Shown here: positions 5,345 to 64,000 of the stretch, piece by piece
Layout of the letters: each line of letters begins with the position of its first letter
Position numbering within the stretch: position 1 is the first letter of the stretch
From: Ruegeria marina
GTDB lineage: Bacteria > Pseudomonadota > Alphaproteobacteria > Rhodobacterales > Rhodobacteraceae
DNA length: 64,000 nucleotides
Reading direction: 5' to 3'
NCBI RefSeq assembly: GCF_900101475.1
Contig: NZ_FMZV01000002.1
Span: 186,001 to 250,000, forward strand
Notes under the pieces: generated by a model
Told to the model about the DNA's origin: nothing
The model's database searches: none
Seen by the model: only the letters and a program-made list of their open reading frames with translations
Made by a program: the position numbers and the translations under genes

Positions 5345-6002
5345 GCCTCGCCCCTGAACGGTATGATGATCAACGGCCTACCATCCGGAGCGCGGTCATG
5401 CTGTGGCCGGATATTGGCGATCGTCTGACCATAGCCATTGGCCACCAGGCCGCGCATCACCGCAATGTCACGGGTCCGTCCCGCGATCAGCGGCTTGTTT
5501 CCCTGGAGCTGGAAGAAGGACAGAAAATAATCAGAGCTGAACGGCAGGTCGAGCAACATCATGGGCAATCCCGTTAGGTCATCAACACTGACACTGTCGC
5601 GGCCCGCCGCAACCCGCTGCAGATCCCGGCCTGGTTCATCTCGATCTGGCGGACATGCGCCTCGGGAAAGACCGCCTCGAAACTGCGGCGCACCATCGGC
5701 AGGACGATCTGCGCAAAGGTCAGGAGGTAGCCGATGGAGGGCGGCCCGCGCACCTGGCCCATGATGCCGCCGACAAGATCGGTCATCCGCTCGGCCTCGC
5801 GCAGGACCACGCGAGCCTAGTCCGGCATCACGCGTCCCGCCTGGATCAGCGACAGGCCCTGCGCATGCTGGCGCACGAAGAGCGGCACGTCGAACTCCAG
5901 TTCGAACTGCGAAATCGCCGCCGAGATCGAGGGCGAGGACACGTTCACCCGGGCCGCGGCCACGAAATATTCCAGCGGGCGCAGCGCATATCTGGTCGGC
6001 AT
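5345..6002 (-). pseudogene. Broken LysR-type regulator gene
   Basis: ATG 6002, with GGAAGAG upstream, starts MPTRYALRPLEYFVAAARVN. The winged-helix region continues VSSPSISAAISQFELEFDVP. About 15 residues usually present between FVAVA and VNVSSPSIS are missing, which would damage the helix-turn-helix. An in-frame TAG follows RVMPD near 5818. The effector domain continues as REAERMTDLVGGIMGQVRGP, shifts frame near 5570 and reads LDLPFSSDYFLSFFQLQGNK through PLIIIPFRGEAQAL. It then runs in frame into the flavoenzyme fragment near 5340. It probably once controlled the neighbouring demethylase genes. Confidence 0.88.
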
Positions 6003-6075
6003 CGGCGCTCTTCCGGCAATGGTAGCGGACGGAGGGCGGTACGATTCCCCGCCGGATGCAAGCCGCCACCCCTGC

Positions 6076-6750
6076 CTATTCGTCGCCCGGCACACCATAA
6101 GAGGGCGCAGCACGCGGATCCAGCGCCCGCTGGACATAGGCGTCGAGCTGCGGCTTGTAGACCTCCCAGGCCGTGGCTACCTCCTCGACGGGACAATCTT
6201 CGGTCCAGTCGCAGCGCAGATCGGCCACCGGCCAGCTTACCTTGTCCACCAGCATCATGCCCGCCGAATGCACCGGCCCGGCCTCGCCGCCGGCCGCCAG
6301 CCCGGCGCGCAGCGCCGCGATCAGCCGGTCGCCCAGATATCCGGCCTGACCAAGAAAGGCGTCGACCATGGCCTGCGGCACACGATCATTGGCCAGCAGG
6401 TTGCCACCCGCGGCCACGTCCGGCGCCTGCGCCTGAGTCCAGATGCCCAACGCATGGGTGCCGGAATGGATCGCCGCGCGCCCCTGCGCGTCGACGGCCA
6501 GCACCTGCCTGTAGTCGATGAACTTGCCGCGCCGGCGAACTTCGGCAACCGCATTCGGCGCCGACATGCCGCCCTCCATCAGGTCGAGCGCCATCGGCCC
6601 CAGCGCCGGGTCGGTCACGTTCTGCGACGCGACCGCGCCAACCCCGGCCCGCGCATGCGAACAGCGCGCCGCCACCGCCGGAGACGAGGAGGAAATCGCC
6701 ACTCCGAACATGCCTGTCTCCGCGCAGCGCGCCACCAGCGAAAAGGTCAT
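6076..6750 (-). CDS. DUF1028 family protein (Ntn-hydrolase-like)
   Basis: This is a 224-residue DUF1028 protein. It begins MTFSLVARCAETGMFGVAIS, then GVGAVASQN and the long helical core with AVDAQGRAAIHSG and GNLLAND; length and motifs fit the family. The fold is related to Ntn hydrolases and the biochemical role is unknown. In many genomes it travels with RidA and amino-acid catabolic genes, as here. GGAG precedes ATG 6750. A repeat copy (6763-6785) lies just upstream, so the 80-base gap to ridA may separate transcripts. Confidence 0.88.
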   Translation of the reverse strand: MTFSLVARCAETGMFGVAISSSSPAVAARCSHARAGVGAVASQNVTDPALGPMALDLMEGGMSAPNAVAEVRRRGKFIDYRQVLAVDAQGRAAIHSGTHALGIWTQAQAPDVAAGGNLLANDRVPQAMVDAFLGQAGYLGDRLIAALRAGLAAGGEAGPVHSAGMMLVDKVSWPVADLRCDWTEDCPVEEVATAWEVYKPQLDAYVQRALDPRAAPSYGVPGDE

Positions 6751-6762
6751 GATCGTCTCCTG

Positions 6763-6785
6763 CTTCTTTCTGGTCAAAAATACTC
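6763..6785. repeat. Intergenic repeat, copy 2
   Basis: The 23 bases are identical to the copy at 1960-1982. Here it stands between ridA and the DUF1028 gene and is followed by a GGGAGCG...CGCTCCC dyad (about 6791-6829), so a GC hairpin sits next to the element as it does at the later copies. Confidence 0.75.
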
Positions 6786-6830
6786 TCGGGGGAGCGCGAG
6801 GGGGCAGACGGCCCCATCGCTCCCACATGC

Positions 6831-7247
6831 TCAATCGGGAATGACGGCGGTGGCGTCGATCTCCACCAGCCACTCGGGCCGCGCGAGGGCCGACACCACC
6901 AGCCCGGTCGAGACCGGATGCACGCCGCGGATATACTCGCCCATGGTGCGATAGACCGCCTCGCGATGGCGCACGTCGGTGATATAGACCACGACCTTGA
7001 CCAGGTGCTCCATGCCGCCGCCCGCCTCCTCGATCAGCTGGCGGATGTTCTGCATCACCTTGTGGGTCTGTTCGGCCGGGTCGTGGCTGTCGATGTTCCT
7101 CGCGTCGTCCAGGTTCTGCGGGCATTGCCCCCGCATCCAGACGGTGCGCCCGCCGCGCGTCACGACGGCCTGCGCCAGGTCGTTGTCGAGCTTCTGCTCG
7201 GGATATGTGTCGCGCGTGTTGAACGGGCGGATGCGGGTATGGGCCAT
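6831..7247 (-). CDS. RidA/YjgF/YER057c family deaminase
   Basis: This is a 138-residue RidA-fold protein. Family members hydrolyse reactive enamine/imine intermediates released by PLP or flavin enzymes. The core reads VWMRGQCPQNLDD, QTHKVMQNIRQLIEEAGGGM, KVVVYITDVRHREAVY and the end GLVVSALARPEWLVEIDATA. Arg in ALARPEWLVEI occupies the position of the substrate-binding Arg of RidA (…aLp.p.a.vEI). It lies in a minus-strand series with the Rieske oxygenase and flavin monooxygenase, which suggests it clears an imine formed by oxidative N-dealkylation. That link is inferred from context. Confidence 0.88.
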   Translation of the reverse strand: MAHTRIRPFNTRDTYPEQKLDNDLAQAVVTRGGRTVWMRGQCPQNLDDARNIDSHDPAEQTHKVMQNIRQLIEEAGGGMEHLVKVVVYITDVRHREAVYRTMGEYIRGVHPVSTGLVVSALARPEWLVEIDATAVIPD

Positions 7248-7274
7248 GGGCGTCTCCGTGACTGGGCCTTGGGT

Positions 7275-8426
7275 TCAGGGTCGGGCCGCGGCGCGGCCCG
7301 CCTCGATCATCGCCATCAGGTACTGGGCGAAATCGTAATTCGGGCGTTCGAGATGACTCAGGTGCCCCGGGGCCGCCGCGTCCGAGCACAGACCGCGATA
7401 GACCTTCTCGGTACAGCCCCGGTCCTCGATGTTCACCCGGTCGAGCAATTCCTTGAGATCGGAAAAATTCTGCTGTGCGTCCGCATCGCCCGCGTAATCA
7501 TCCGACATACCTCCGCCAAAGCGGATATGCACCTGTCCCGGCCCTCTGGGATGCAGCGACAGGTACCAGAAATAGCCCGGCGTCAGGGTGATCAGCAGGC
7601 TGGGATAGAGCGCCAGCAGGAAAGTGGTACGCCGCTCCACCCCGTGCAGCCGGTCGTTCGATGGATGCGCCATGGCGATGCGCAGCGCGTCGTCCTTTAA
7701 GATGGTGTGATAGTTGAACGCCGGCAGGCCCGGCGGACAGACCATGTCCTCCAGCTTGGACAGACCGCCGATGGTGCCCGCGTGGCAGACCGGCAGATGA
7801 TAGCTTTCCATGAAATTCTCGGCCAGCACCTTCCAGTTGGTGTCCCAGACATGTTCCTCGTAGAAGGCTTCGGTATAGTTGGTCATGTCATAGCCGGCGA
7901 CCATCGCAGCGACCTGTTGCAGTTTTTCGGCCACCGGTTGCGCTTCGGGATTCAGGGTGACGAAAACCCAGCCCAGCCATTCCTCGCAGCGGATCGCGGG
8001 CAGCGCGTAGTCTTCCTTGCAGAAGCTCTTGTTCAGGCTCATCGCCGGGGCGCCGCGCAGCGAGCCGTCGAGGTTGTAGGTCCAGGCGTGATAGGGGCAG
8101 ACGATCGCGCGGGTATTGCCGCGCCCGTGCAGGAGCGTGGACATCCGGTGCAGGCAGACATTGCTCATGGCCCGGAGCGTGCCGTCGCGGTCGCGCAGCA
8201 CCACAATCGGCTGGCCCGCAAGCTCGCAGGTGGCATAGTCGCCGGGGTTCGCCAGCGCATCGGCGCGGCCGATGCAATACCAGTCCCTGCGGAAGATGTG
8301 ATCAAGCTCGGCGCTCAGGAACGCATCCGAGGTATACACCTCGGGCGGCATCGCGCGTGCGGATTCGAACGGTTGCGCCGTGTTCTGCCGCAGCGCCTCT
8401 ACCGGGTCGATCTGGTCTTTGGCCAT
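7275..8426 (-). CDS. Rieske non-heme iron oxygenase, alpha subunit
   Basis: This is a 383-residue aromatic-ring-hydroxylase-type oxygenase. The Rieske 2Fe-2S site is C91-x-H93 with C110-x2-H113. The mononuclear iron site lies in NWKVLAENFMESYHLPVCH (His210, His215). Overall length and the WKVLAENFMESYH motif fit the group that includes choline, glycine-betaine, stachydrine and hydroxyproline-betaine demethylases rather than ring-hydroxylating dioxygenases; that placement is my inference. No reductase gene is adjacent. ATG 8426 begins MAKDQIDPVEALRQN. It shares strand and spacing with the FMO gene upstream, 34 bases away. Confidence 0.9.
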   Translation of the reverse strand: MAKDQIDPVEALRQNTAQPFESARAMPPEVYTSDAFLSAELDHIFRRDWYCIGRADALANPGDYATCELAGQPIVVLRDRDGTLRAMSNVCLHRMSTLLHGRGNTRAIVCPYHAWTYNLDGSLRGAPAMSLNKSFCKEDYALPAIRCEEWLGWVFVTLNPEAQPVAEKLQQVAAMVAGYDMTNYTEAFYEEHVWDTNWKVLAENFMESYHLPVCHAGTIGGLSKLEDMVCPPGLPAFNYHTILKDDALRIAMAHPSNDRLHGVERRTTFLLALYPSLLITLTPGYFWYLSLHPRGPGQVHIRFGGGMSDDYAGDADAQQNFSDLKELLDRVNIEDRGCTEKVYRGLCSDAAAPGHLSHLERPNYDFAQYLMAMIEAGRAAARP

Positions 8427-8460
8427 AGTTCGGTTTTCCTCTCTTGCGGTCACGGCGGCG

Positions 8461-9720
8461 TCAGGCCCACGCTTCGGCGGGGCTGTAGGCCTCATAGCTG
8501 CGCTGTATCGCGATCTGGTCGGCCACGTGTTTCGCATCGTGCCAGACCCCCCAGATGAATGTCGAGCCGCGTCGCGACTGCCAGGGCAGGCCCAGAAAGT
8601 AGACCCCCGGTTCGCAGGACACGCCGCGCTGGTGGACGGGCCTGCCCGCACCGTCGAAGGCATCGACCTCCAGCCAGCCGAAATCCTGCCGGAACCCGGT
8701 GGCCCAGAGGATGGTGGAAATCCCCTCCTGCGCCAGATCAAGCTCCAGGATCGGATCGGTCAGGCAGTCCGGGTCGGGCCAGGCGACGCGGGCCTCGGGT
8801 TCCTCGGGCAGGTCGAGGCCCATTCGTTCGGCATAGGCATCGGCGGCATCCAGAACCGACAGGTAATTGGCGTCGCCATCGGCGATATTGGCGGCCAGGT
8901 CATCGGCAAAATGCAGAGCACCGTTTTCAAAGGACCGCGTCACCCCGACCAGCGTGATCCCCTCGCTGGCCAGACGCCGGAAATCCATCGTGGCGCCGCC
9001 ATAGGCGCCGCTGACCGCGATGGCCACATGTTCGCGGCCGGGTTCCAGCGCCGCCTGATCCCAGAGGCCCAGGACCCCCAGCCACCAGCAGTAGTCGCGT
9101 CCGCGATAGGCGCGCGGCGGCCGGTCATGCGCCCCGATCGACAGGAACACCCGGCGCCCAGCCCGGTTCAGTTCATCAGCGATCTGGGCGCCCGAGGACC
9201 CGCCGCCCACGACCAGCACCGCGCCGTCGGGCAACTGGCCTGGATTGCGGTAGTCGAAGGAATGCAGCTGGGTCACGCCGGCGTCCCCGGGCACCAGCGG
9301 CGGAATGACCGGGTACTGGAACGCGCCGGTGGCTGCGATGATCCGCTGCGCCTCGATCACACCCTGCGAAGTTTCGACCCGGAAACCGGACCGTCCCGGC
9401 AACCGCGTGGCGCGCCGGACCTCGATCCCCGTGCGGATCGGCGCGCCCACCATCTCGGCATAGGAACAGAGGTAATCGGCGACTTTCTCCTTGGCCGGGA
9501 AGTCGTCCGGCCCGCAACTGTCATGTTCGCGGTTCGGGAACCTGTCATGCCAGGCCGGGCCATTGGCCACCAGCGCATCCCAGCGGCCCGAGCGCCAGGC
9601 TTCGGCGACGCGGTTCTTTTCCAGCACCAGATGCGGCACGCCCAGCTGGCCAAGATGCTCGCTCATCGCGATCCCGGCCTGACCTGCGCCGACAACCAGC
9701 GTATCTATGCGTTCAACCAT
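8461..9720 (-). CDS. NAD(P)/FAD-dependent flavin monooxygenase (CzcO/YhiN-like)
   Basis: This is a 419-residue flavoprotein of the FMO/Baeyer-Villiger type. It has the FAD dinucleotide fold at the N-terminus (VVGAGQAG, residues 9-16) and a second nucleotide fold LVVGGGSSGAQIADEL for NADPH. The C-terminal signature ATGFRQDFGWL is followed by GVYFLGLPWQSRRGSTFIWG. The substrate is unknown; in this setting it probably oxidises an N-containing catabolite. ATG 9720 (MVERIDTLVVGAG) is favoured over the codon 11 residues upstream because GGAGGAG lies eight bases before it. Confidence 0.88.
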   Translation of the reverse strand: MVERIDTLVVGAGQAGIAMSEHLGQLGVPHLVLEKNRVAEAWRSGRWDALVANGPAWHDRFPNREHDSCGPDDFPAKEKVADYLCSYAEMVGAPIRTGIEVRRATRLPGRSGFRVETSQGVIEAQRIIAATGAFQYPVIPPLVPGDAGVTQLHSFDYRNPGQLPDGAVLVVGGGSSGAQIADELNRAGRRVFLSIGAHDRPPRAYRGRDYCWWLGVLGLWDQAALEPGREHVAIAVSGAYGGATMDFRRLASEGITLVGVTRSFENGALHFADDLAANIADGDANYLSVLDAADAYAERMGLDLPEEPEARVAWPDPDCLTDPILELDLAQEGISTILWATGFRQDFGWLEVDAFDGAGRPVHQRGVSCEPGVYFLGLPWQSRRGSTFIWGVWHDAKHVADQIAIQRSYEAYSPAEAWA

Positions 9721-54658: not shown

Positions 54659-54722
54659 GGAGTATTTCAGACCAGAAAGAAGCAGAATCGTCCTGCGCCT
54701 TCTTTCTGGTCTGAAATACTCC
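54659..54722. repeat. Intergenic repeat, perfect 24-bp inverted pair
   Basis: The arm at 54659-54682 (GGAGTATTTCAGACCAGAAA then GAAG) is exactly complementary to 54699-54722, with 16 bases between. Both arms belong to the element family seen at 1960, 6763 and 32740. It marks the last host-like sequence: beyond it base composition falls and the integrase follows about 210 bases later. Confidence 0.88.
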
Positions 54723-54934
54723 CGCCGGGGGTGCGTGACGCCACGTTACGCCATTTTCACTGGTCAACGCCACCTCTCACTAGCTCTCATTCCACGAGAA
54801 TATGCAAGTAAATCCAATGCGTTAGAAACTTGCAGACGTATTTTCGTTGTCTCACTCTGTCCCACGGACGGGCGCTTACCGCTTCTGCGAATTGAAGACG
54901 GTCAACCCCGAAGCAACCCCGAAGGAGCCAGACA

Positions 54935-56059
54935 ATGAACAACGGACAACGACTCACAGACAGACTCATCCGCAGCAGACTACCTCAACCCCCGGAGCGG
55001 ATTGAGATAACAGATAGCGCCACCCCCGGTCTGTTCTTGCGAGGCCATACCAAGCGGGCCGTATGGACGCTTCGCCGCAAAGTTGACGGGCAGATGGTGC
55101 GGCAAGTCCTTGGCGAGTTCCCAACCATCGGTGCGAACGACGCAAGATCACTCGCGGGTCAGGCCGTTGAAGCCGCGCGCACCGGGCCGGTGGCCGGCAT
55201 CGACGCGGGAACGACGCTTAGGAATGTTCTCGACGCATGGAGCGACGCGAGAAGTGACCTTAGAAGGACCGAAGCACGAAAAGCAGCCCTTGCTAGGGCT
55301 TTTCCAGACCTCCTTCCAAGGGCCACGGTAACGATGGATACGCCTGTATTCCTGCGAGCCGCTGACGGGCTATCGGCCGGAGCGCGGGTCAAGGCCTTGC
55401 GTGACATGCGAGCAGTAGCGTCCTGGGCGGCTTCGCGCGGACTGATGCCAGAAGGGGTTTTGCAAAACATCAAGTTAGAGCGGGGTGGCGAGCGAGACTA
55501 TGTGCCAGAAGTCGAGCATGTGCATGCGTATTGGAAGGCCTGCGAAGTGTTAGACGAAGTTCGTTGCCGGTTCTTCAGGTTCATAGTTCTTTCGGCTTGG
55601 CGGAAGTCTGAGGTGCGAGAAATGCGATACGACTGGATAGACGGTGACAAGGTAGTTGTGCCAGCCGCACACACGAAGACAAAGAAGGATCAGGTCCACC
55701 CCCTGCCTGAAGGTTGGAAAGACTTGATCGGAACCGGCGACGGCATTGTCTTCCCGCGCGACGACGGCAGACCTCTATCCGACTACACGGATGGGCACCA
55801 TAAGCGGGTGATCGAAGAAGCCGGGGTGCCACACTTTACGCTGCACGACCTGCGACGGGCTTTCGCTACGCATATGGCTGATGCGGGGGGCGACCTACTA
55901 TCTATCGAACTGTGTTTAGGACACTCCCCCAGTCGTGTGTTGGGGTCAGTAGGAGCGGTGTATAACCGTAGTCAACGGTTTGATATGAGACGTCAACTTC
56001 TGGATCAATGGGCCGCGACCGTCAAAACGCGCGATATCGCAACCCTCGCCGCTGAATAA
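54935..56059 (+). CDS. Tyrosine recombinase / phage integrase
   Basis: This is a 374-residue integrase. The N-terminal arm-binding part (PGLFLRGHTKRAVWTLRRKV) resembles the DUF4102 domain of P4-type integrases, then a core-binding helical domain (95-185). The catalytic domain shows Arg223 (LSAWRKSEVREM), Lys248 (HTKTKKDQ), His304 and Arg307 (HDLRR), His330 (LGHSPSR) and the nucleophile Tyr343 (GAVYNRS). All catalytic residues are present, so the element may still be mobile. GGAG precedes ATG 54935. P4-type integrases often use tRNA genes, but none is seen here. Confidence 0.92.
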   Translation: MNNGQRLTDRLIRSRLPQPPERIEITDSATPGLFLRGHTKRAVWTLRRKVDGQMVRQVLGEFPTIGANDARSLAGQAVEAARTGPVAGIDAGTTLRNVLDAWSDARSDLRRTEARKAALARAFPDLLPRATVTMDTPVFLRAADGLSAGARVKALRDMRAVASWAASRGLMPEGVLQNIKLERGGERDYVPEVEHVHAYWKACEVLDEVRCRFFRFIVLSAWRKSEVREMRYDWIDGDKVVVPAAHTKTKKDQVHPLPEGWKDLIGTGDGIVFPRDDGRPLSDYTDGHHKRVIEEAGVPHFTLHDLRRAFATHMADAGGDLLSIELCLGHSPSRVLGSVGAVYNRSQRFDMRRQLLDQWAATVKTRDIATLAAE

Positions 56060-56068
56060 TGGTTCGGA

Positions 56069-56096
56069 GACCCTTCAATCCTGCGATTGAGGGGTC
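56069..56096. terminator. Hairpin between integrase and tape measure genes
   Basis: GACCCTTCAAT pairs with ATTGAGGGGTC (one wobble, 6-base loop) exactly between the two convergent stop codons. It would serve either strand, though no long T tract follows. Confidence 0.5.
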
Positions 56097-56097
56097 A

Positions 56098-57705
56098 TCA
56101 TACGGCTTTCCTGCGCGCTGTGGTGCCTGCTTCAACCGCACGGGCATATGTGCCCTGACCGGTCATCATCGACCGTGAAAAGTCTTGCTGTACTGCTTGA
56201 CGGGCCTGCCCAATTATTACACTGATTTCGGCTTCGCTGATCCGCTGAACTTCTACAGGACTACCAGTGTAATTGTGAATGTTGACGACGGGCGCTACAG
56301 CACCCACTCCCAATGTTCCGTTGTGCCGCTGAAGTGGAACGATTGCCTCCGGGCCAGCTTCGCCCATTAGGCCGGTGCCGCCGTTCTTCATAGGGAAGAC
56401 TGTCGGAGACGATACTACGCCACCCTTCGCAAATTTTACTGCCGTTTCCACGTTGGCCATCTGGGAAAGTATGCTGCCGAACGAAGTAAGTTCTGTTCCA
56501 CCGGATTTAAAACCGAAAGCCTTCATCAATGTGTTAAGAATGAACATTCGTGCGGTAAGTTTGGCTATATCAACAGCGAGATTGCGTGCGAAATCTTTGA
56601 AGCTAAGTTGACCCTCGATCAAGGCATCACTGAAGCTGAACAATGCCTCAGTGCCGGTCTTCATAAATGTTTCATTAAGATTGGTTTCTGTCTTCGCAAT
56701 CCATTCATTCAATGTAATTATGCGTTCTGTGATCTCCTTTATTTGGCGACCACTTCCACCCCCAGATTGGGAATCTGAAGGAATACGAGGGGGTGTAAAA
56801 GTACGGGGCTCGCTGTAATACGGGTCTCCTTCACCGCCGAACGCATCAAGCTGTTCTTGCCGTACACGTGCGGCCATACCAAGCATCGTGTAATACATCT
56901 GCGAGGTCTTCGCCAACAGACCATCGGCAGCGGTTTCCGCAGAAGTGAACACCCCCGAGATATCAAGTCCTGTGATATCCTTCAGGATGTTCTTCGTTTC
57001 CTCGGATTTCTTACGGAGTTCTTCGGCTTGCGGGACAAGTTGGTTATAAAGTTCGAGTTGGACACGATAGAATGCGACGAGCATTTGGTGCTCTGCGATC
57101 TGGTAGTCGATCTTCATCAACAGGGCGTCTGCACCTTCAAGGACAGTAGTATTGATCCTCTGGTACTCGTCCAACAAAGCAGAGATAGCTCTACTTTCGG
57201 CCTCAATCGCATTCAAGAAAGATTGTTGTTGTGGGTCCAAACCCTTTTGCAGCCGTTCAATCTCAAGGCGAAGTTCTTGAATTGAGTTGGTGGCTTCTGC
57301 GGCTTGCTCACGAGACAGCTTCAATGCGGCGGACATAGTGTCCCCGGCCTCTGCGGCACTGTACAAGGCGCGGCCGAGACCGATGACGGCGGGGACGACA
57401 ATCGAAAGTCCCATCCCCCACGGTCCGAGGAACTGCGCGATCTGAGCGAACTGCTGCGAAAAGGCTACGAGTGCTGATTGTCCAGAAGTGACCTGTACAA
57501 CGAAGTCATTGACTTGGAATCCTGCGTTCTGAACGAAAGCACCGTACTGGCGTGCGTTCCGTCCTGCCGTGGCAAGACTTCGTCCGGTGTTGGCTGTAGC
57601 AGTGGTAGTGGCGTTCAGCGCACCTTCCATCTTGCGCAGATCGGATATGGCCTTGCTGGCTTCAAGATGAGCACGGATAAGTAGGGTTTGTGTTGCGTCT
57701 GCCAT
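56098..57705 (-). CDS. Phage tail tape measure protein (short)
   Basis: This is a 535-residue protein. The N-terminal half is coiled-coil-like (KAISDLRKMEGALNATTTAT, ATNSIQELRLEIERLQKGL) with a hydrophobic stretch FLGPWGMGLSIVVPAVIGLG that could enter the membrane on infection. The C-terminal signature FAKGGVVSSPTVF with GLMGEAGPEAIVPLQR is that of lambda-type tape measure proteins. At 535 residues it is short, predicting a short tail if tail length scales with it. It is last in the minus-strand structural series and overlaps the upstream stop by one base. Confidence 0.87.
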   Translation of the reverse strand: MADATQTLLIRAHLEASKAISDLRKMEGALNATTTATANTGRSLATAGRNARQYGAFVQNAGFQVNDFVVQVTSGQSALVAFSQQFAQIAQFLGPWGMGLSIVVPAVIGLGRALYSAAEAGDTMSAALKLSREQAAEATNSIQELRLEIERLQKGLDPQQQSFLNAIEAESRAISALLDEYQRINTTVLEGADALLMKIDYQIAEHQMLVAFYRVQLELYNQLVPQAEELRKKSEETKNILKDITGLDISGVFTSAETAADGLLAKTSQMYYTMLGMAARVRQEQLDAFGGEGDPYYSEPRTFTPPRIPSDSQSGGGSGRQIKEITERIITLNEWIAKTETNLNETFMKTGTEALFSFSDALIEGQLSFKDFARNLAVDIAKLTARMFILNTLMKAFGFKSGGTELTSFGSILSQMANVETAVKFAKGGVVSSPTVFPMKNGGTGLMGEAGPEAIVPLQRHNGTLGVGAVAPVVNIHNYTGSPVEVQRISEAEISVIIGQARQAVQQDFSRSMMTGQGTYARAVEAGTTARRKAV

Positions 57706-57977
57706 TAGTGAAGTTTCCTCTTATCCAGACGGAAAGTGTAAATGCGAGCAAGAAAGTCGCCTGTGTCTGCGGGACGTAGACCTTGAAAATGTTCAGCGAG
57801 CATCGAAACTCCGAATACTGAATTCGGAAAAGGATCATCGCGAATAAGCGGCCATACGGAGACAGTCAGGAAGTGAAACTTGACTGCGAATTCTTGATCG
57901 TTGTCGATTGACCAAATTCGCTGAAGTTCATGTCCTATCTTATTGAAAGTTTCGGTCTCAATCGTGAACTGTTCCAT
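57705..57977 (-). CDS. Phage protein of unknown function, 90 residues
   Basis: MEQFTIETETFNKIGHELQR begins a small acidic-to-neutral protein with EFAVKFHFLTVSVWPLIRDD in the middle. Its place directly before the tape measure gene is where tailed phages keep tail-assembly chaperones, but I see no chaperone motif or slippery frameshift sequence. It overlaps both neighbours, supporting real translation. Not recognised. Confidence 0.6.
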   Translation of the reverse strand: MEQFTIETETFNKIGHELQRIWSIDNDQEFAVKFHFLTVSVWPLIRDDPFPNSVFGVSMLAEHFQGLRPADTGDFLARIYTFRLDKRKLH

Positions 57978-58362
57978 TTTCGATTGCCTCCTTCAGAAGT
58001 CTGTCGGCGGCATCTTCCCCCTGATTGCAGGCGTACATTTCTGCATAGTAGAGGAATGACGCTGCTTCGATTTGGTAATCTTGTTTATTTGGAGCACCGA
58101 TGTTTATCTGTTTATTCGCGTTGCAATGACACATGCGAAGATAAATTCCGATGACATCGCGGATACGTTTATGCTTCAACGAAATGCGAAAATTGAGATT
58201 CACGTAGATGTGAACGTGATCGTCGTAAAGGTAATTGACCGACACGGAGGAATTATAGCCAATGCGTTGAGGCTTACCGACTGTTGTGGGCATTGTAGGC
58301 TTCGCAGGGGTCAACTTTGACTTTGACGGGTTCATGCGCTTCGCCGGATTCATGTTCATCAT
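57958..58362 (-). CDS. Phage protein of unknown function, ~134 residues
   Basis: The start is ATGATG at 58362/58359, overlapping the capsid stop and preceded by GGGGGGA. The N-terminus is basic and repetitive (MNPAKRMNPSKSKLTPAKPT), followed by a compact part with YLYDDHVHIYVNLNFRISLK, CHCNANKQINIG and FLYYAEMYACNQGEDAADRL. Position after the capsid gene suits a head-completion or neck protein. No family is recognised, and that role is inferred from place only. Confidence 0.6.
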   Translation of the reverse strand: MMNMNPAKRMNPSKSKLTPAKPTMPTTVGKPQRIGYNSSVSVNYLYDDHVHIYVNLNFRISLKHKRIRDVIGIYLRMCHCNANKQINIGAPNKQDYQIEAASFLYYAEMYACNQGEDAADRLLKEAIENGTVHD

Positions 58363-59801
58363 TCCCCCCAAGTCACGGAAGTGAGGTAAGCGACAGAAGA
58401 AGCGTCCACTACGGCCCAACTGGTAGGTTGGACGACGCGCAAAGCTGCACTGTTGGTCTGGAACATGGACCGAACGTCTGTGGGAGGAACGGTGCTCGCT
58501 GCATCGCTGATTTGGATACTGCCAGCCTCGTCAACGTAACCGTCTGTCTGGCTGCCACCTGTCATCTGGGGGGCGGGCTGCATGTCGTCGGCCATGGCAA
58601 GAGTTACAGCGCCGCTCGTGTCGATCATCGGAGACTCGATACCGTGATAGAAGGCATTGGCGTCTACGGCAGTGACAACACCTTCGGGAACGTAAGGTGA
58701 ATGTATGAGTTCCATGCCCCAGAGGTTGTTCGCGGCGACCATGGGGGCGAGAGGGAAAGTGCCGTTGGCCGAGATCACCATCTCCAAGGCATTCTTGCGC
58801 TTGGTGTTCATGATAATCGCCGGTCTGCGGGCATTCGTCATGGCCGTTCGTAGATAGGTGAAGTCTGTGAGGATGTTTTCGAGCGTCTTACCGGCAGACG
58901 CTTTATTGTCTGCACCGTTCGTGATTGCGGCAGGACGAAGACCACCAATTGCAGCGTAAGACGGATCCAACAGGAACGAATCAAAGCCTTGAGACAGATC
59001 GTCAAGAATGAAATCTTCGAAGATGCCCAAGGCATTGGATACTTTGATCAATTCCCGTGTGGCTGTTGTGATGACACCAAGCTTGAATCTGTTAATCGTG
59101 GTGGTGCCGAGAGTCGCCTGCTTGACAGGTATGGTTGCGTGCTCAGACACCCATGCTGGCATCATCGAACCGGAATCTCCGGGTGCCCGCTTCGGAATTG
59201 AAATCGAATTGTGCGGACCGAACGGGATCGCCGTTCCCTTGGAAGACAGTTGTGCCAGCGCCGACCGCTGTTGAAGGCTGCGCCAGAAAGCCATCAATCC
59301 TGTGTCAACGAGTTCTGTTCCACCCCCAGGCAGGGCCGTGCCAAGCGGGTCGGTCGCAGATTTCGTCAACATTGCTTCAGCGAAGTGGAAGTTGTACTTG
59401 TCGTTGTCTTTGCTGAGCAGCTTTTCAAGAGACTTGCGGGTAGGTTCATTGAAGAAGTGGTTGCGCAATTGTGCGACGAAGACACCGGCCAGTGCTTTTG
59501 AAAGTCTGAATCCTTCCATCGGGTCTTTTGGCTTTGCGGGCTGTACCAGCGTCGATTGCACCTGAATGGGACGGTCATGCTTCCGGCGAAGCTGTTGGAC
59601 CTCGGCAGTGAGTTCTAGCATCTGACTACGCAGACGCGGAAAGTCAGAGACGTCCTGCTCGACAGCTTTCACCGCATTATCGAATGCCTTTCGATAGGCG
59701 AGTTCCTTCAAGGCTTTCGTAGCCTTCTTTTCGTAATCCGGATCGTAGAGATTACCTACTACGAAGGAACCGTTATTCTTTGGATTGAAAGGGGTGCTCA
59801 T
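58359..59801 (-). CDS. HK97-fold major capsid protein
   Basis: This is a 480-residue capsid protein of the phage HK97 group. Residues 1-90 are helical and charged (KKATKALKELAYRKAFDNAV), like a delta/scaffolding domain. The fold proper begins near SATDPLGTALPGGGTELVDT and ends VQPTSWAVVDASSVAYLTSV. AWVSEHATIPVKQATLGTTT and FILDDLSQGFDSFLLDPSYA are typical P-loop and spine segments. No maturation protease gene is nearby, so the N-terminal arm may stay uncleaved or be cut by a helper. It starts one base after the coiled-coil gene stops. Confidence 0.87.
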   Translation of the reverse strand: MSTPFNPKNNGSFVVGNLYDPDYEKKATKALKELAYRKAFDNAVKAVEQDVSDFPRLRSQMLELTAEVQQLRRKHDRPIQVQSTLVQPAKPKDPMEGFRLSKALAGVFVAQLRNHFFNEPTRKSLEKLLSKDNDKYNFHFAEAMLTKSATDPLGTALPGGGTELVDTGLMAFWRSLQQRSALAQLSSKGTAIPFGPHNSISIPKRAPGDSGSMMPAWVSEHATIPVKQATLGTTTINRFKLGVITTATRELIKVSNALGIFEDFILDDLSQGFDSFLLDPSYAAIGGLRPAAITNGADNKASAGKTLENILTDFTYLRTAMTNARRPAIIMNTKRKNALEMVISANGTFPLAPMVAANNLWGMELIHSPYVPEGVVTAVDANAFYHGIESPMIDTSGAVTLAMADDMQPAPQMTGGSQTDGYVDEAGSIQISDAASTVPPTDVRSMFQTNSAALRVVQPTSWAVVDASSVAYLTSVTWGE

Positions 59802-59802
59802 C

Positions 59803-60180
59803 TTATGCGCTCCGACGAGTGGATTTGAAGGGGATCATTGCGGCTTTGTGCTGAGCGGCCATCTTATTCAGGGTGTTCAGGTCGGGGGCAGAGTCTTCGG
59901 TTCCCCCCTGAGTTTGGGATTGGGGTTCTGCCTTGAATTCCTCGATCTGCTTTTCTGCCGATTCCAGCTTGGACTTCAGAGCAGAAAACTCTTTCGTGAG
60001 TTCGTCGAAGCGCTTCTGGAAAGCTTCTTCCTTGAGTGCCATCTGTTTCTTGACCGTTGAAGCTATGACCCTGGCGATTGTGTCCATCAACTCTTTGTTG
60101 GACTGTCCTGTTCCGCCCCCCTGAGTGGATTTGGTCGAGGAGACGATGCTGGAATCTCCGAAAGGGTTATTGTATTGCAT
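59803..60180 (-). CDS. Coiled-coil phage protein, scaffold-like
   Basis: This is 125 residues from ATG 60180 (MQYNNPFGDSSIVSSTKSTQ), preceded by GGAGG. Residues 35-90 form a strong charged coiled coil (FDELTKEFSALKSKLESAEK), and the end is basic (AAMIPFKSTRRSA). Size, composition and position directly before the capsid gene suit an internal scaffolding or capsid-size-determining protein. The frame extends 26 codons further up without a better ribosome site. No family recognised. Confidence 0.65.
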   Translation of the reverse strand: MQYNNPFGDSSIVSSTKSTQGGGTGQSNKELMDTIARVIASTVKKQMALKEEAFQKRFDELTKEFSALKSKLESAEKQIEEFKAEPQSQTQGGTEDSAPDLNTLNKMAAQHKAAMIPFKSTRRSA

Positions 60181-60640
60181 TGTTCGCCTCCAATTAAGAG
60201 CGTCGGGGCGGGAAACCTTGCGATATCGCGCCTTTTGGGGGTCGTGCGTTTCATTCATGTGAGCGATTCATCCGTTTTCACAGAATTGAGTGGATTCATC
60301 CCGTGGACGGAATAGTCGTTTTAATAATTTTGCGCCAAATTCGGTTGAAAAGCATATGTTATTGAATAATGCGTCGCGGGCTAATCCTGTGGGATTAGGG
60401 TTGAATCGTAGAACGTTACGGCTGTGATGAAGGTCGATGGTCGGACCGTTGGGCGACGGCGGCGACCAGGGCGGCGACCGGGGCGGGTTGCGCGCGCGGG
60501 GCGGGCCTGAACGCGTCCGGGGTGGCCCGTTAAGCGCCTTGGGCCGACGCAGCGGGCCGGGGCCGACGCGCGGGCCGGGGCGGGCTCTGCGCCAATTCTC
60601 GACCATTTTAGGCTCTATACGATGGAGGTCTTCAGTGGCT
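60181..60640. other. Gene-free segment with an extreme G-rich block
   Basis: No convincing gene. Bases about 60440-60600 are almost entirely G and C with a strong G bias on the plus strand (repeats of GGCGACC, GGGGCGGG, GGGCCGGGGC). The flanks (60290-60430) are AT-rich. The frames across the block give low-complexity Pro/Arg/Gly peptides with no start signals. It could form G-quadruplexes or act as a structured RNA, replication or packaging signal; none of these is shown. Confidence 0.5.
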
Positions 60641-60838
60641 TCAGTAGAAGCTTGAGCGGTACTTGTGGGTTGGCCTCACCCCCCGCTCAAGCTTTTCGCG
60701 AAGATCTGCGTTTTCTTTTGGATCGCGCTGCTTTAACTCGCTTTGTCTTAGTTCCTCAAGTTTCTTCTTAAAACCGCGTTCTCTGCGGCTAAAAAATAGG
60801 TCGTTTTCTGCTTTTTCAGACTGTTTCTTGAACGGCAT
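60641..60838 (-). CDS. Small, highly basic phage protein
   Basis: This is 65 residues, about 40% Lys/Arg/Glu (MPFKKQSEKAENDLFFSRRE), predicted helical with no hydrophobic core. AGGAGG stands nine bases before ATG 60838, the best ribosome site in this part of the element, which is the main reason to call it. A DNA-binding or regulatory role is possible. Not recognised. Confidence 0.55.
   Translation of the reverse strand: MPFKKQSEKAENDLFFSRRERGFKKKLEELRQSELKQRDPKENADLREKLERGVRPTHKYRSSFY
60648..60694. repeat. Perfect 12-bp inverted repeat at the end of the small basic gene
   Basis: AAGCTTGAGCGG (60648-60659) and CCGCTCAAGCTT (60683-60694) are exact complements with a 23-base loop. The pair straddles the last codons of the small gene and could be a terminator or protein site. 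Confidence 0.55.
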
Positions 60839-61501
60839 TTTTGGGGACCTCCTGAAGCTAGATTCCTAAATTGCGATTCAAAATTGAGTTTGGGGTCCGA
60901 GTGTGGGTCACATGGCAAAGCTTGAAGTGACCCTCCCCCAGACATATAACGTCCCGAACTGCGTTCGAAAATTTGGCCGGATGTTGGGGCGGGCAATTGA
61001 AGCCAGTATTCAAGGTTCCGTAGAACTGAAAATTCCGTGGGGTCGGGACTCTGTTTGACACTTCGGAGCCAACGAAGCAGCAGTTGTGCAGGGTTGAACA
61101 ATGCGTCGTGGTGGCGACACGTATGCGACGGAAGCGTTGGGGTGATTGTGCTTGCTGTACGTGTTGCATATTGAACACCAGAGCAAAGAGGTTGCCCTCT
61201 CTTGCTCCTTGACGATGCAGAAAGAAACAAGAGAGGGCATTTACTCTAAAATGTAGGACCAAGCCACATATAGAGTAAAGTAGAGCGTGAGTTACATCAA
61301 GACGGTTGAGAAGGATCAAGACGTAAATTTATTATTTCCTGAATTTCAATGAATCGCTAATGGATTTGTATCGTGCGTCGTTCAGTTCAATTCTGGAATT
61401 CAATCGGTGATTCTGAATAATTACGCGAGCGGATACCCCCCAACATATAAATCGCCCCAAGTTGGAAAGATTCCCAAGTTAACTGCCAGAAACCAATCCA
61501 G

Positions 61502-61521
61502 CAGGGGGCTGGAGCCCCCTG
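61502..61521. repeat. Perfect 9-bp palindromic hairpin
   Basis: CAGGGGGCT and AGCCCCCTG pair exactly around GG. About 140 bases downstream of the primase stop on its strand. The arms share GGGGGCT with the tandem repeat at 61604. Confidence 0.6.
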
Positions 61522-61603
61522 GGGACCCGTGGAGACCCGTCGTTCAACTGGAGTCGAGGTAACCCCCCAACCGTTGAGGGGGTCATCCTGCTTAATTAAA
61601 ATT

Positions 61604-61633
61604 GGGGGCTCCAGGGGGCTCCAGGGGGCTCCA
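61604..61633. repeat. Three tandem copies of a 10-bp unit
   Basis: GGGGGCTCCA occurs three times in direct succession, 32 bases from the primase stop codon. The same GGGGGCT core occurs in the hairpin at 61502. Could be iteron-like binding sites, or simply slippage. Confidence 0.7.
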
Positions 61634-61664
61634 CCTTCAGTTGTGGGATACTTTTACCGATCAA

Positions 61665-63992
61665 CTACCAGTTGGCGCGATCATCGTCAATGAAAGACGG
61701 ACTACGCTCGATCAGAAACAGTCCTCGCCGCAGCAACTCGTTCGCCCGAACCACCTTCAGTTTTCCTTCAGCGATCAGCAGCTGCATATCACTAAAGGTT
61801 ACAGACAGAGCCTCAGACCTGCTTATGAAGGCCATCCTTTCCTTCTTGTGGCTAGTCCACCCCTGATAGTCCCTGTCTGGTTCCTGTTCCCACGGAAACA
61901 GCACAGTGCCGTACTGCTCGTTGTGCAGGTACGAAACCTGCGGTTGCTTGTTCTTCATGGGGGAGAAAAACCCACCCTTTCTCACGGCCTCGAAGCGGGC
62001 CTTGTCACCGATCTTTTTATCAAGCAGCCCTGCCCGTTCCATACTAACGAACAACTCTTTAGCCATCACGACTTCGCCGAACAGAACCTCTCCGGTGTCC
62101 TCGTTGACCTTAAGCTTCAATCCCCCCAGAGCATCCAGCAGGTGCTGCGACCAAGCGGCCACCGACATTTCGATGAACTCCTTCTTGGTTTCAGTGAGGG
62201 GGGCGTGTTCACCGGGTTCGACGAAGGTATAGCCTTCGGCCTCGTAACTGTTTTCCAACCACCAACGGAGGTTTCTCAAACCTACACCCCCGTCACGGAA
62301 AGCCAGAACGTCGCGTAGCATGTTGCGCGGTAGGGTCTGTTCTCGACAATGGACAACGAGCCATCGACGGTCGTCACCGGTCAAAGCCAAAGCGCCAACC
62401 TTGTTCGTAGCACCCGCCAGCGAAGCCGCGTTATCGGTCTCGAATTGAGCACCGTACTTCTCGTTGATCTGTATCTTTTCCTCGGTGATGATCGTCTTAA
62501 GCTTATCTACTGCCTTGTAGTTGTCCTCGGCATATATCTCGTGGCAGATCACCAACAGGGCGTTGTGCATCGCACCGTTAAAGTCACTTTCCAGCAGAGC
62601 CCTATCGCTAATCTCGGCTACGTAGACACCCCCCAGGAAACTTCGAAGGACACTCAACAGCAGACTCTTGCCAACACCCCCCTTCACTGAAAATAACAGC
62701 AAGGCGTACTGCATTTTCTGCTCTGGCTTGGCCAAGACGGTAGCTATCCACCTGATCAGTTCTCGTCGTTCATCGGCATCGGGAACAAGCCAGTAGATGA
62801 ACTCAATCAGGACGCCCACATCACCCTGTTGGGGGGTGGGCCTCAGATCCTTGTACTGGTTAAACTTCCAGTCACGACCATCGTCATCGTAGAACGGCCC
62901 AACAGACTTTCCGGGGCGGAAAGCTAGGCCGCCCATGGTCTGCAATCGCTGAGCCTTAAGTTTAGGGGCGACTTCTGCCAGATGTGAGAAGTTGCGAACC
63001 GCATCGTTGAGCGTATTTGTGAAGAATACGCGCAGAGGATCAGACTTGCGAACGAACATAGTCTTGTTTCCTGAGACCATGTAACAATCGTCAATGAACC
63101 GGTTAGTCAGGTCAAAGATCGGTCTTCCGTCCCGAAAACCAACCTGATGCGTAACCCAGAACGCTGGCTTCAGGAACGCTTCCAAGTCCTCTCTAGCCCA
63201 TACCAGTTTGCCTTCATGATCTTTGACGTAGTTTGCCTTTGGCATAGGGTCAGCGAAGTCCCAACCTTTAGGAACTTTATCTATCTTCATTGTATCGAAC
63301 ATGAAGACCTCAAGGCGAGTACCGGCCATGCCCTCTGACGCACTGAAAACCGCCCTTAGGCCTTCTTGGTCTGCATCTGGCACAAATACTATTTCTTCCA
63401 CCCCGGCCTTGATGGCTGTATCAGACAGTAACCGCCAATCTACGCGCCGCGCTCCGGGGGCACCGAAACCCCAACCTACGTGGAAGGCGTCAGAACGGCA
63501 AAGGAAGGCGTTTAGCGGCTCCTGTGTGACCATGCCTCGGCGGATATGTTCAACCGCCTTCTCGCCTTCGTGGACGAACAGACGCTTCTTCGCTTTTGAC
63601 GCCCGCAATTCGCCAATGCCATAGATGCGGTGAAAGTCTTCAGGTTCGCCTAGCACCCATTCTCCCCCTTCGTGGGGGGTGAAGGTCATGAAACGCTTTA
63701 CACCGTTTGATCGCCGATATCGCACGCGGATGCACTCGACCAACTTTGCCGGGTACTCGTCGGCTATGATCTCGTCTTCGAAGTCCCAGTACGTATAGAC
63801 GTCCTCAGGGTCTGCATTCGCGATAAGGTCTGGCAACAACTCGAACCCGAGAAGGCTGCGGTTCGGCCTGACACTGAGCAATGGTCCTTTGCCAGCCCCC
63901 TCGATGACGACCTTGGTCGGCTCGGGCGCGCGATATCGCAACGCTTCGGCCTTGAACATCTGGTTCTCGGCCTCGGTCATGGGGTGTTCCAT
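61665..63992 (-). CDS. Phage/plasmid primase-helicase (D5-like, SF3)
   Basis: This is at least 775 residues. A TOPRIM-like part (LFVHEGEKAVEHI with VFVPDADQEGLRAV, about 137-220) is followed by a superfamily 3 helicase: Walker A SVKGGVGKSLLL (435-446), Walker B LLVICHEIYAEDN (479-491), motif C AGATNKVGAL (526-535) and the arginine finger DDRRW (540-544). No zinc-finger primase domain is visible at the N-terminus. Such proteins start replication of phages, satellites and plasmids. The frame stays open to the window edge, so ATG 63992 may not be the true start; no ribosome site is seen. Confidence 0.88.
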   Translation of the reverse strand: MEHPMTEAENQMFKAEALRYRAPEPTKVVIEGAGKGPLLSVRPNRSLLGFELLPDLIANADPEDVYTYWDFEDEIIADEYPAKLVECIRVRYRRSNGVKRFMTFTPHEGGEWVLGEPEDFHRIYGIGELRASKAKKRLFVHEGEKAVEHIRRGMVTQEPLNAFLCRSDAFHVGWGFGAPGARRVDWRLLSDTAIKAGVEEIVFVPDADQEGLRAVFSASEGMAGTRLEVFMFDTMKIDKVPKGWDFADPMPKANYVKDHEGKLVWAREDLEAFLKPAFWVTHQVGFRDGRPIFDLTNRFIDDCYMVSGNKTMFVRKSDPLRVFFTNTLNDAVRNFSHLAEVAPKLKAQRLQTMGGLAFRPGKSVGPFYDDDGRDWKFNQYKDLRPTPQQGDVGVLIEFIYWLVPDADERRELIRWIATVLAKPEQKMQYALLLFSVKGGVGKSLLLSVLRSFLGGVYVAEISDRALLESDFNGAMHNALLVICHEIYAEDNYKAVDKLKTIITEEKIQINEKYGAQFETDNAASLAGATNKVGALALTGDDRRWLVVHCREQTLPRNMLRDVLAFRDGGVGLRNLRWWLENSYEAEGYTFVEPGEHAPLTETKKEFIEMSVAAWSQHLLDALGGLKLKVNEDTGEVLFGEVVMAKELFVSMERAGLLDKKIGDKARFEAVRKGGFFSPMKNKQPQVSYLHNEQYGTVLFPWEQEPDRDYQGWTSHKKERMAFISRSEALSVTFSDMQLLIAEGKLKVVRANELLRRGLFLIERSPSFIDDDRANW

Positions 63993-64000
63993 GGAGAACT

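Follow-up and report, generated by a model that had tools for sequence, protein, structure and literature searches.

A capsid- and tape-measure-encoding island in Ruegeria marina, probably a phage satellite of a new family

The stretch of Ruegeria marina DNA analysed here (64,000 nucleotides, the whole of which we call the window; G000:C29:186001-250000, in a genome of 5.0 Mb) carries at its right end an integrated island of 13,507 bp. The island is probably a phage satellite of a new family, which encodes its own shell and its own ruler, a short tape measure protein (TMP), and is given portal, protease, motor, connectors and tail by a helper phage. We infer this mechanism, with shell and ruler its own and the rest borrowed, from gene content, co-occurrence and published precedents. 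An earlier sequence-only reading had offered two options for the element, a phage satellite or a reduced prophage. The first is carried by a family of 13 islands, by precise attachment (att) sites and by the lack of recognised packaging genes, and the second is not supported. The same reading had called capsid plus TMP without portal and terminase an unusual set, and the set does match none of the satellite family definitions that we consulted.

The ends of the island, at window positions 54718 and 68238, were taken from two empty sites in congeneric genomes (G031 and G459). Positions on the stretch L002 (C29:239001-258000, a code that also names the window island below) become window coordinates by adding 53000; other L codes denote further stretches and G codes denote genomes, G000 being that of the window. 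The right-flank alignment on the empty site begins at L002 15225 in both congeneric genomes, and the left-flank alignment reaches L002 1731, in one piece in G031 and gapped in G459. The two empty sites share one sequence, and the attL and attR cores are identical at 12 of 14 positions. Because of the two mismatches, a search of the flanks for exact att repeats gave only one 12-base chance match, and the empty-site comparison solved the ends. The island is thus a discrete integrated element with its own integrase and precise ends, as is general for satellites, and its stretch has a GC content of about 0.40-0.61 in host DNA of mostly 0.6-0.7.

All genes named in the sequence-only reading (integrase, superfamily 3 (SF3) primase-helicase, capsid protein with a coiled-coil partner, two unknown proteins and TMP) lie where it had put them (Table 1), and its left edge, 54723, falls inside the att core at 54718-54731. 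The scaffold-like, capsid, 134-aa, p90 and TMP genes abut or overlap and, as had been read, gene scans recognise no terminase, portal, protease or tail tube gene between capsid and TMP. The suggestion that the missing genes might lie beyond the right edge did not survive: attR is only 4.2 kb past position 64000, and from the window edge to attR no terminase, portal, protease or tail module (tube, tip) was recognised. The terminase, portal and tail module that would have marked an ordinary prophage were thus sought on the extended contig and not found. Beyond the primase gene lie open reading frames (ORFs) of 99 and 84 aa (minus strand), 294 and 120 aa (both plus) and 295 aa (minus), the last matching phrog_25239, a family of unknown function, at E 2e-10. 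Portals and large terminases take some 350 aa at the least. Among six-frame ORFs of at least 300 aa the island has exactly four, namely those for the integrase, TMP, capsid and primase-helicase, so that none is unassigned and the virion gene set is incomplete, which is again general for satellites.

P4-like satellites and SaPI-type phage-inducible chromosomal islands (PICIs) carry family-specific regulators and capsid-size genes, such as Sid, Psu and CpmAB. Genes of these types were not named by Pfam, PHROGs, NCBIfam or PADLOC in the scanned island proteins, for which no specific models were run, and the P4-family primase model TIGR01613 matches the primase-helicase below its cut-off (E 3e-7). 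Fold searches, proposed earlier as a way to place the two unknown proteins (p90 and the 134-aa protein), returned no PDB match at E ≤ 0.001. Neither protein matches any family well, and no function was drawn from structure for either.

There are 12 further full-size islands with related capsid genes. At E 1e-50 or better, and counting G000 itself, the family search yielded capsid relatives in 3 of 394 genomes and the order search in 6 of 390; among the 385 genomes of a class-level search G000 alone was as strong. In two genera the capsid is matched in 5 of 25 genomes (genus of G502) and in 4 of 54 (genus of G543), one of the latter weakly. Weak matches were excluded from the family, comprising 29 of 35 matching genomes in the order, 8 of 9 in the class, one of four in the family (G297, a prophage) and one of four in the genus of G543. 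The tally, window island included, is 13 full-size islands in nine Rhodobacterales genomes of four genus codes, with three islands in G502 (L055-L057) and two each in G543 and G1041. Two truncated sister copies, L010 (G240, of the same bacterial family as G000) and L081 (G1042), stand outside all counts over 13. Limits of sister islands were set by eye from gene content; those of the window island alone come from att comparison. A scan of genome contigs gave one locus, a truncated copy in Tateyamaria sp. Alg231-49 (Roseobacteraceae, Rhodobacterales).

A capsid gene is present in 13/13 islands by gene maps, clustering and Pfam, and so is a replication-type protein, which is of several unrelated kinds (VapE or DUF5906, AAA_25, DUF3987, Toprim, primase PHROG). 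An integrase was identified by similarity in 11 islands and not seen in the L054 and L056 stretches. An island-built profile finds the scaffold-like gene before the capsid gene in 11 islands at E<1e-15, weakly in L053 and not at all in L054, and a 182-aa protein precedes the scaffold-like gene in ten islands, all but the window island, L053 and L054. Profiles were run on all 2,333 stop-to-stop frames of at least 40 aa in the 13 islands; since they were built from these same islands, members match by construction, and the absences and few extra hits are what informs. Whole-genome searches with PF04860 (portal) and PF03354 (large terminase) in ten genomes, the nine above plus G240, gave no match inside any of the 13 islands. 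Called genes of at least 250 aa beyond capsids, TMPs and integrases, scanned with Pfam, likewise included no portal or large terminase; besides replication domains they show a reverse transcriptase (in L077) and a handful of other domains, and some show none. Four of them lack any Pfam match (L054, 613 aa; L051, 301 aa; L055, 298 aa; L080, 389 aa), of which the L080 protein clusters with primases. The reduced gene set therefore appears old and maintained, because the 13 islands keep their capsid genes as open frames at about 30% identity and no portal or large terminase is recognised in any of them.

The TMP family occurs in six of the 13 islands (L002, L051, L052, L055, L056 and L057). The p90 family is found in the same six, and both families are absent from the other seven islands; in the window island p90 adjoins the TMP gene and gives no match to a tail assembly chaperone. 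TMP carriers are spread over three subclades of the capsid tree, so that the TMP module must have moved or been lost more than once. A small-terminase-like gene is present in five islands (L009, L053, L054, L079 and L080), none of which has a TMP; the two genes never occur together (two-sided Fisher p 0.021, from small numbers and with kinship uncorrected), and L077 and L078 have neither. Matches of the small-terminase-like genes to Pfam Terminase_4 are all under the cut-off, at E 4e-5 (L053), 0.005 (L054, L079) and 0.05 (L009), as is that of TIGR01558 to the L053 gene (E 8e-4). The L080 gene, with no Terminase_4 match, joins by similarity to L053 and L079. In the window island the small-terminase profile from the sister islands finds nothing. 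It is conceivable, if rather doubtful, that the family swaps two claims on the hijacked particle, all active machines being borrowed. Members with a small-terminase-like gene would point the helper's motor at satellite DNA, and members with TMP and p90 would make their claim at the tail, joining satellite shells to tails of satellite length.

A maximum-likelihood tree was built from 15 island capsid rows and 14 others. In it the islands fall on one side of a branch with values of 94/96, just under the tool's mark for firm support, and present in 94% of bootstrap trees. Closest to the islands, joining at 87/79, are two viral contigs and L059 with L134. Because of long branches the root is uncertain, as is the position of some phages. 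The motif [KR]-[SAD]-[AS]-T is present in all 14 island rows that reach its column, and about 146 residues precede it in the island capsid protein. It is not special to the islands, because non-island rows also have lysine (11 of 14) or arginine (two) at its first column. The protease of phage HK97 cuts the capsid protein after such a lysine. In some of the phage records matched by the island capsid, protease and capsid are fused (PAJU2, and in L011 and L058 capsid frames of about 640 aa). The presumed cut site is kept and no protease is recognised in the island, which points to trimming of the capsid protein by a helper's protease.

Taken together, these features suggest the following course. 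On infection by a tailed helper the island would excise and replicate from an origin beside its primase gene. The scaffold-like and capsid proteins would build a shell of the island's own, probably smaller and suiting a 13.5-kb genome, which would start on the helper's portal, and the helper's protease would trim the capsid protein at the retained site. Terminase motor, connectors and tail would come from the helper. The island's TMP, with p90 as its chaperone-like partner, would replace the helper's ruler, giving a hybrid particle a satellite-specified and probably shorter tail. The defence-like gene (a weak AbiJ_NTD4 match) would be cargo.

Several points weigh against this interpretation. 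Neither a helper phage nor induction, particles or transfer has been observed. The scaffold is named from weak profile matches and position, its Phage_scaffold match standing among many chance coiled-coil matches, and neither sequence nor fold links p90 to a tail chaperone. Gene content varies within the family, with integrase and scaffold-like gene each in 11/13 islands and TMP in 6/13. The 182-aa gene is missing from the window island, where about 1.3 kb (60268-61500) holds no convincing gene at the place of the sister islands' conserved gene; no remnant of it was found in L002, and the window copy may be decayed in part. Whole-genome searches for portals and terminases covered PF04860 and PF03354 only. 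Scans of viral contigs gave no island-type contig (no relatives with single proteins, three distant contigs with alignment A4) and reach close relatives only.

One alternative is that capsid protein and TMP are weapons: the first would co-assemble with the helper's capsid protein and redirect capsid size, TMP and p90 would poison or shorten helper tails, and the shell would be mostly helper protein. We regard this as unlikely. A satellite-encoded capsid homologue acting in this way is known, Ccm of SaPIbov5 (PMC8569155), the conserved cleavage motif fits co-assembly with a protease-bearing helper, and besides the scaffold-like gene the island has no other recognisable head gene. However, a scaffold-like gene, unneeded for co-assembly alone, stands before the capsid gene in 11 of 13 islands, and the region ahead of the presumed cut in the island capsid is longer than the N-terminal region of Ccm. 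It is very improbable that the island is a prophage in decay whose packaging and tail modules have gone. The partial set of phage-type genes, the stretch without a convincing gene, the missing 182-aa gene and the two truncated sister copies would suit decay, but not the open capsid frames kept by 13 divergent islands without recognised portal or large terminase, nor the precise att sites and the grouping of island capsids.

The TMP bears on the nature of the helper. Its C-terminal region holds a conserved GEAGPEA block, and the best NCBI family for this region is RcGTA_tape (E 3e-17, 63 bits against a cut-off of 220). A profile of the TMP family matches 256 of 292 genomes at E 1e-10 or better, satellites included. 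Among the matches listed outside satellites, nearly all are frames of about 150-325 aa, presumed tape measures of gene transfer agents (GTAs); the best listed is the TMP of a prophage in G255 (L112; profile E 1e-45), and the best short frame scores E 5e-30. The G255 protein (623 aa) has 28% identity to the window TMP over 520 aa (pairwise E 9e-20), and GTA-type TMPs match about as well pairwise (best E 6e-18, from a different search set). Other prophage TMPs have 627, 810-948 and 2,320 aa. By the rule known from lambda, 0.15 nm of tail per tape measure residue, 535 aa would give a tail near 80 nm. These likenesses suggest a helper with a GTA-like siphophage tail. The G255 prophage represents a candidate helper type only: its TMP is alignable with that of the island over most of its length, whereas the prophage is arranged, to judge by gene order and size, as a complete phage with genes for terminase, portal, protease and tail, and its capsid is far from the island capsid.

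Another alternative, that the island is a satellite of a chromosomal RcGTA-like agent whose head and tail it enlarges to carry itself, is extremely unlikely. The RcGTA_tape match of the C-terminal region, the short frames of presumed RcGTA-type TMPs that match the profile across the order (with pairwise values of E 6e-18 versus 9e-20 for the phage) and an RcGTA-like cluster in G000 would favour it, but the profile scores the prophage TMP above the best short frame, the island capsid lies far from the GTA capsid in the tree, and no PF04860 portal, hence by that test no RcGTA-type cluster, is present in G543 and G1041, which hold two full-size islands each, or in G240, whose island is truncated. 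On account of these three island-bearing genomes the GTA was set aside as helper. The other seven of the ten island-bearing genomes have one or more PF04860 portals. In G000 the sole such portal sits in a cluster that, from gene order and sizes, we take to be RcGTA-like. PF03354 large terminases are present in four of the ten genomes and not in G000. The island's structural genes are therefore not one half of a resident prophage of those families, because the G000 portal is RcGTA-like and PF03354 has no match there. As judged by these two families, an infecting phage is more likely than a resident prophage as the helper in this strain. Prophage-like stretches of G526 and G1031 have siphophage-like sets with TMPs of 627 and 2,320 aa, which do not match the satellite TMPs at E ≤ 0.001, and no TMP match was seen in those of G213 and G502.

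A satellite that supplies shell and ruler and borrows the rest has precedents for each half. PLEs of Vibrio cholerae were described in March 2026 as the first satellite family known to build chimeric tails, satellites having been known before to alter heads and packaging (PMC12987554). Like the island, these elements (PLE11 and others) are integrated and encode their own TMP with a small partner gene adjoining. The PLE TMP enters chimeric tails of satellite virions and changes tail length, and its deletion cuts transduction by 96-99.9% (PMC12987554). PLE11 virions combine a helper-encoded capsid protein with a contractile tail that bears a PLE baseplate hub, while the island encodes capsid and scaffold-like proteins; the hosts are unrelated, p90 is unmatched to a tail chaperone, and the comparison is by description, not sequence. 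In SaPIbov5 the helper capsid protein and Ccm both lose N-terminal domains, mature Ccm starting at residue 88 and the mature helper protein at 129 (PMC8569155). Ccm resembles the island capsid in being a satellite-encoded homologue, and Ccm itself is cleaved like the helper's protein, with which it works; the island differs in its scaffold-like gene, longer capsid N-terminal region and TMP.

Capsid-forming PICIs (cf-PICIs) are likewise small and encode an HK97-type capsid, with a gene set of capsid, protease, portal, connectors, both terminases and HNH (PMC10690885, PMC13230959). They rely on helper tails, and a sampling of them carries putative tmp genes (PMC12987554, legend of Extended Data Fig. 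10). The island does not fit the cf-PICI definition, from which it is set apart by the described gene set. It has its own major capsid protein (PF05065, TIGR01554), the only member of the set recognised; no portal or head maturation protease, large or small terminase or HNH gene is recognised in it, and as to connectors, its 134-aa and 90-aa proteins lack both a good family match and any fold match. A cf-PICI with recent loss of part of its head module is extremely improbable: capsid gene, integrase and primase on a small island and the tmp genes reported in some cf-PICIs would agree with it, but a recent loss would not strip the whole family, the other 12 islands lacking portal and large terminase as far as examined (one, L052, has an HNH gene). 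Other elements are described in PMC4936722 and PMC12324425. A literature search gave no Rhodobacterales satellite family with capsid and TMP and without packaging genes; most subscription papers lay outside its coverage, and this absence is weak evidence. Satellite TMPs (PLE) and capsid proteins (Ccm, cf-PICI) are already published, and their combination without packaging genes did not turn up in the literature searched.

Table 1. Features of the window island and small-terminase-like genes of sister islands. Positions are window coordinates unless an L code precedes them; the window ends at 64000.
Feature	Position	Strand	Basis
attL core, 14 bp	54718-54731	.	flanks overlap by 14 bp on uninterrupted site (L133, L132)
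Tyrosine integrase, 374 aa	54935-56059	+	PF00589 E 2.4e-14; phrog_1 E 4e-33
Element-specific 14-bp site, copy 1	56029-56042 (L002 3029)	+	palindromic core GCGATATCGC
Short TMP, 535 aa	56098-57705	-	PHROG tape measure families to E 3.4e-17; RcGTA_tape E 2.8e-17, below cut-off
p90, all-helical, 90 aa, presumed TMP partner	57705-57977	-	co-occurrence with TMP; AlphaFold pLDDT 86
134-aa protein directly after capsid gene	57958-58362	-	relatives after capsid gene in L055, L056, L057, L077, L078; L079 by profile
HK97-type major capsid protein, 480 aa	58359-59801	-	PF05065 E 3.4e-12, TIGR01554 E 2.7e-13, both over cut-off
Codon of capsid Lys147, first residue of conserved motif	59361-59363	-	presumed prohead-protease cut
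Scaffold-like coiled-coil protein, 125 aa from conserved start (M..NPF)	59803-60180	-	Phage_scaffold PF06810 E 9e-5, below cut-off
Element-specific 14-bp site, copy 2	60218-60231 (L002 7218)	-	about 40 bp before scaffold-capsid-TMP run
Short repeats just 3' of primase gene, presumed replication origin	61502-61632	.	9-mer clusters
Primase / SF3-type helicase, 896 aa, crosses window edge	61665-64355 (61665-64000 inside window)	-	DUF5906 E 7e-19 (over cut-off); VapE-like E 8e-8; phrog_1156 E 3e-29
Element-specific 14-bp site, copy 3	63928-63941 (L002 10928)	+	
Element-specific 14-bp site, copy 4	65739-65752 (L002 12739), outside window		
Defence-like cargo, 294-aa protein and 120-aa ORF	65854-67102 (L002 12854-14102)	+	294 aa: AbiJ_NTD4 E 5e-4, below cut-off; PADLOC PDC-S32 E 3e-6
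attR core, 14 bp	68225-68238 (L002 15225-15238), outside window	.	empty-site comparison
Small-terminase-like gene	L009 7680-8219		
Small-terminase-like gene	L053 11961-12419		
Small-terminase-like gene	L054 11586-12083		
Small-terminase-like gene	L079 7758-8249		
Small-terminase-like gene	L080 6597-7061		

The repeats beside the primase gene would suit a replication origin. In 10 of 13 islands the replication gene has, at most about 320 bp from its 3' end, a cluster of a 9-mer with three copies within 250 bp; in L054, L056 and L079 the clusters are not at this gene, and in L053 the repeat is a single 9-mer. Ten further 9-mer clusters occur elsewhere in the islands, in a count made without a shuffled control. 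The element-specific 14-mer has four copies in the genome, all in the island, and its reversed control none. Two copies lie inside genes and one between the small ORFs and the defence-like gene. The site, which does not occur in the stretches of the other 12 islands, is probably the target of an island-specific regulator. To the right of the island lies a host HAD phosphatase gene. ARAGORN called no tRNA genes in the window or in L002 and L003, and no Rfam RNA was found in the island at E 0.5.

Sister islands and other loci gave further observations. Within G502, L055 and L057 have near-identical capsids, and L056 and L057, otherwise different, have long near-identical TMP parts, patterns that suggest recombination between resident satellites. 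The reverse transcriptase of the L077 island lies at 5737-7434, and a Shedu C-terminal domain (7308-8534) lies at the edge of the L053 island, just outside the limits set by eye. Small integrase-bearing stretches with a lone capsid gene were seen in L059 (G596) and at L134 8884-9978 (Sinorhizobium sp. K101 plasmid pK101a); no terminase or portal was noticed in their gene lists, in which most genes are unscanned, and they are possibly further satellite families. L146 774-8076 (G502) has a 1128-aa protein and a PF03354 large terminase with no capsid gene noticed, and is perhaps another satellite type.

If the window island is a satellite as proposed, a shell and ruler of its own combined with borrowed portal, protease and motor would divide the work between satellite and helper in a new way. 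It would also be the second case, after PLE, of a satellite TMP in tails, in other hosts and joined to the satellite's own capsid with no packaging gene recognised. Such a system would make it possible to ask which virion parts of two viruses can be combined, how a shell is begun on the portal of a foreign helper and whether selection acts on tail length in satellites, and the alternatives of TMP and small-terminase-like gene within one family would provide natural comparisons.

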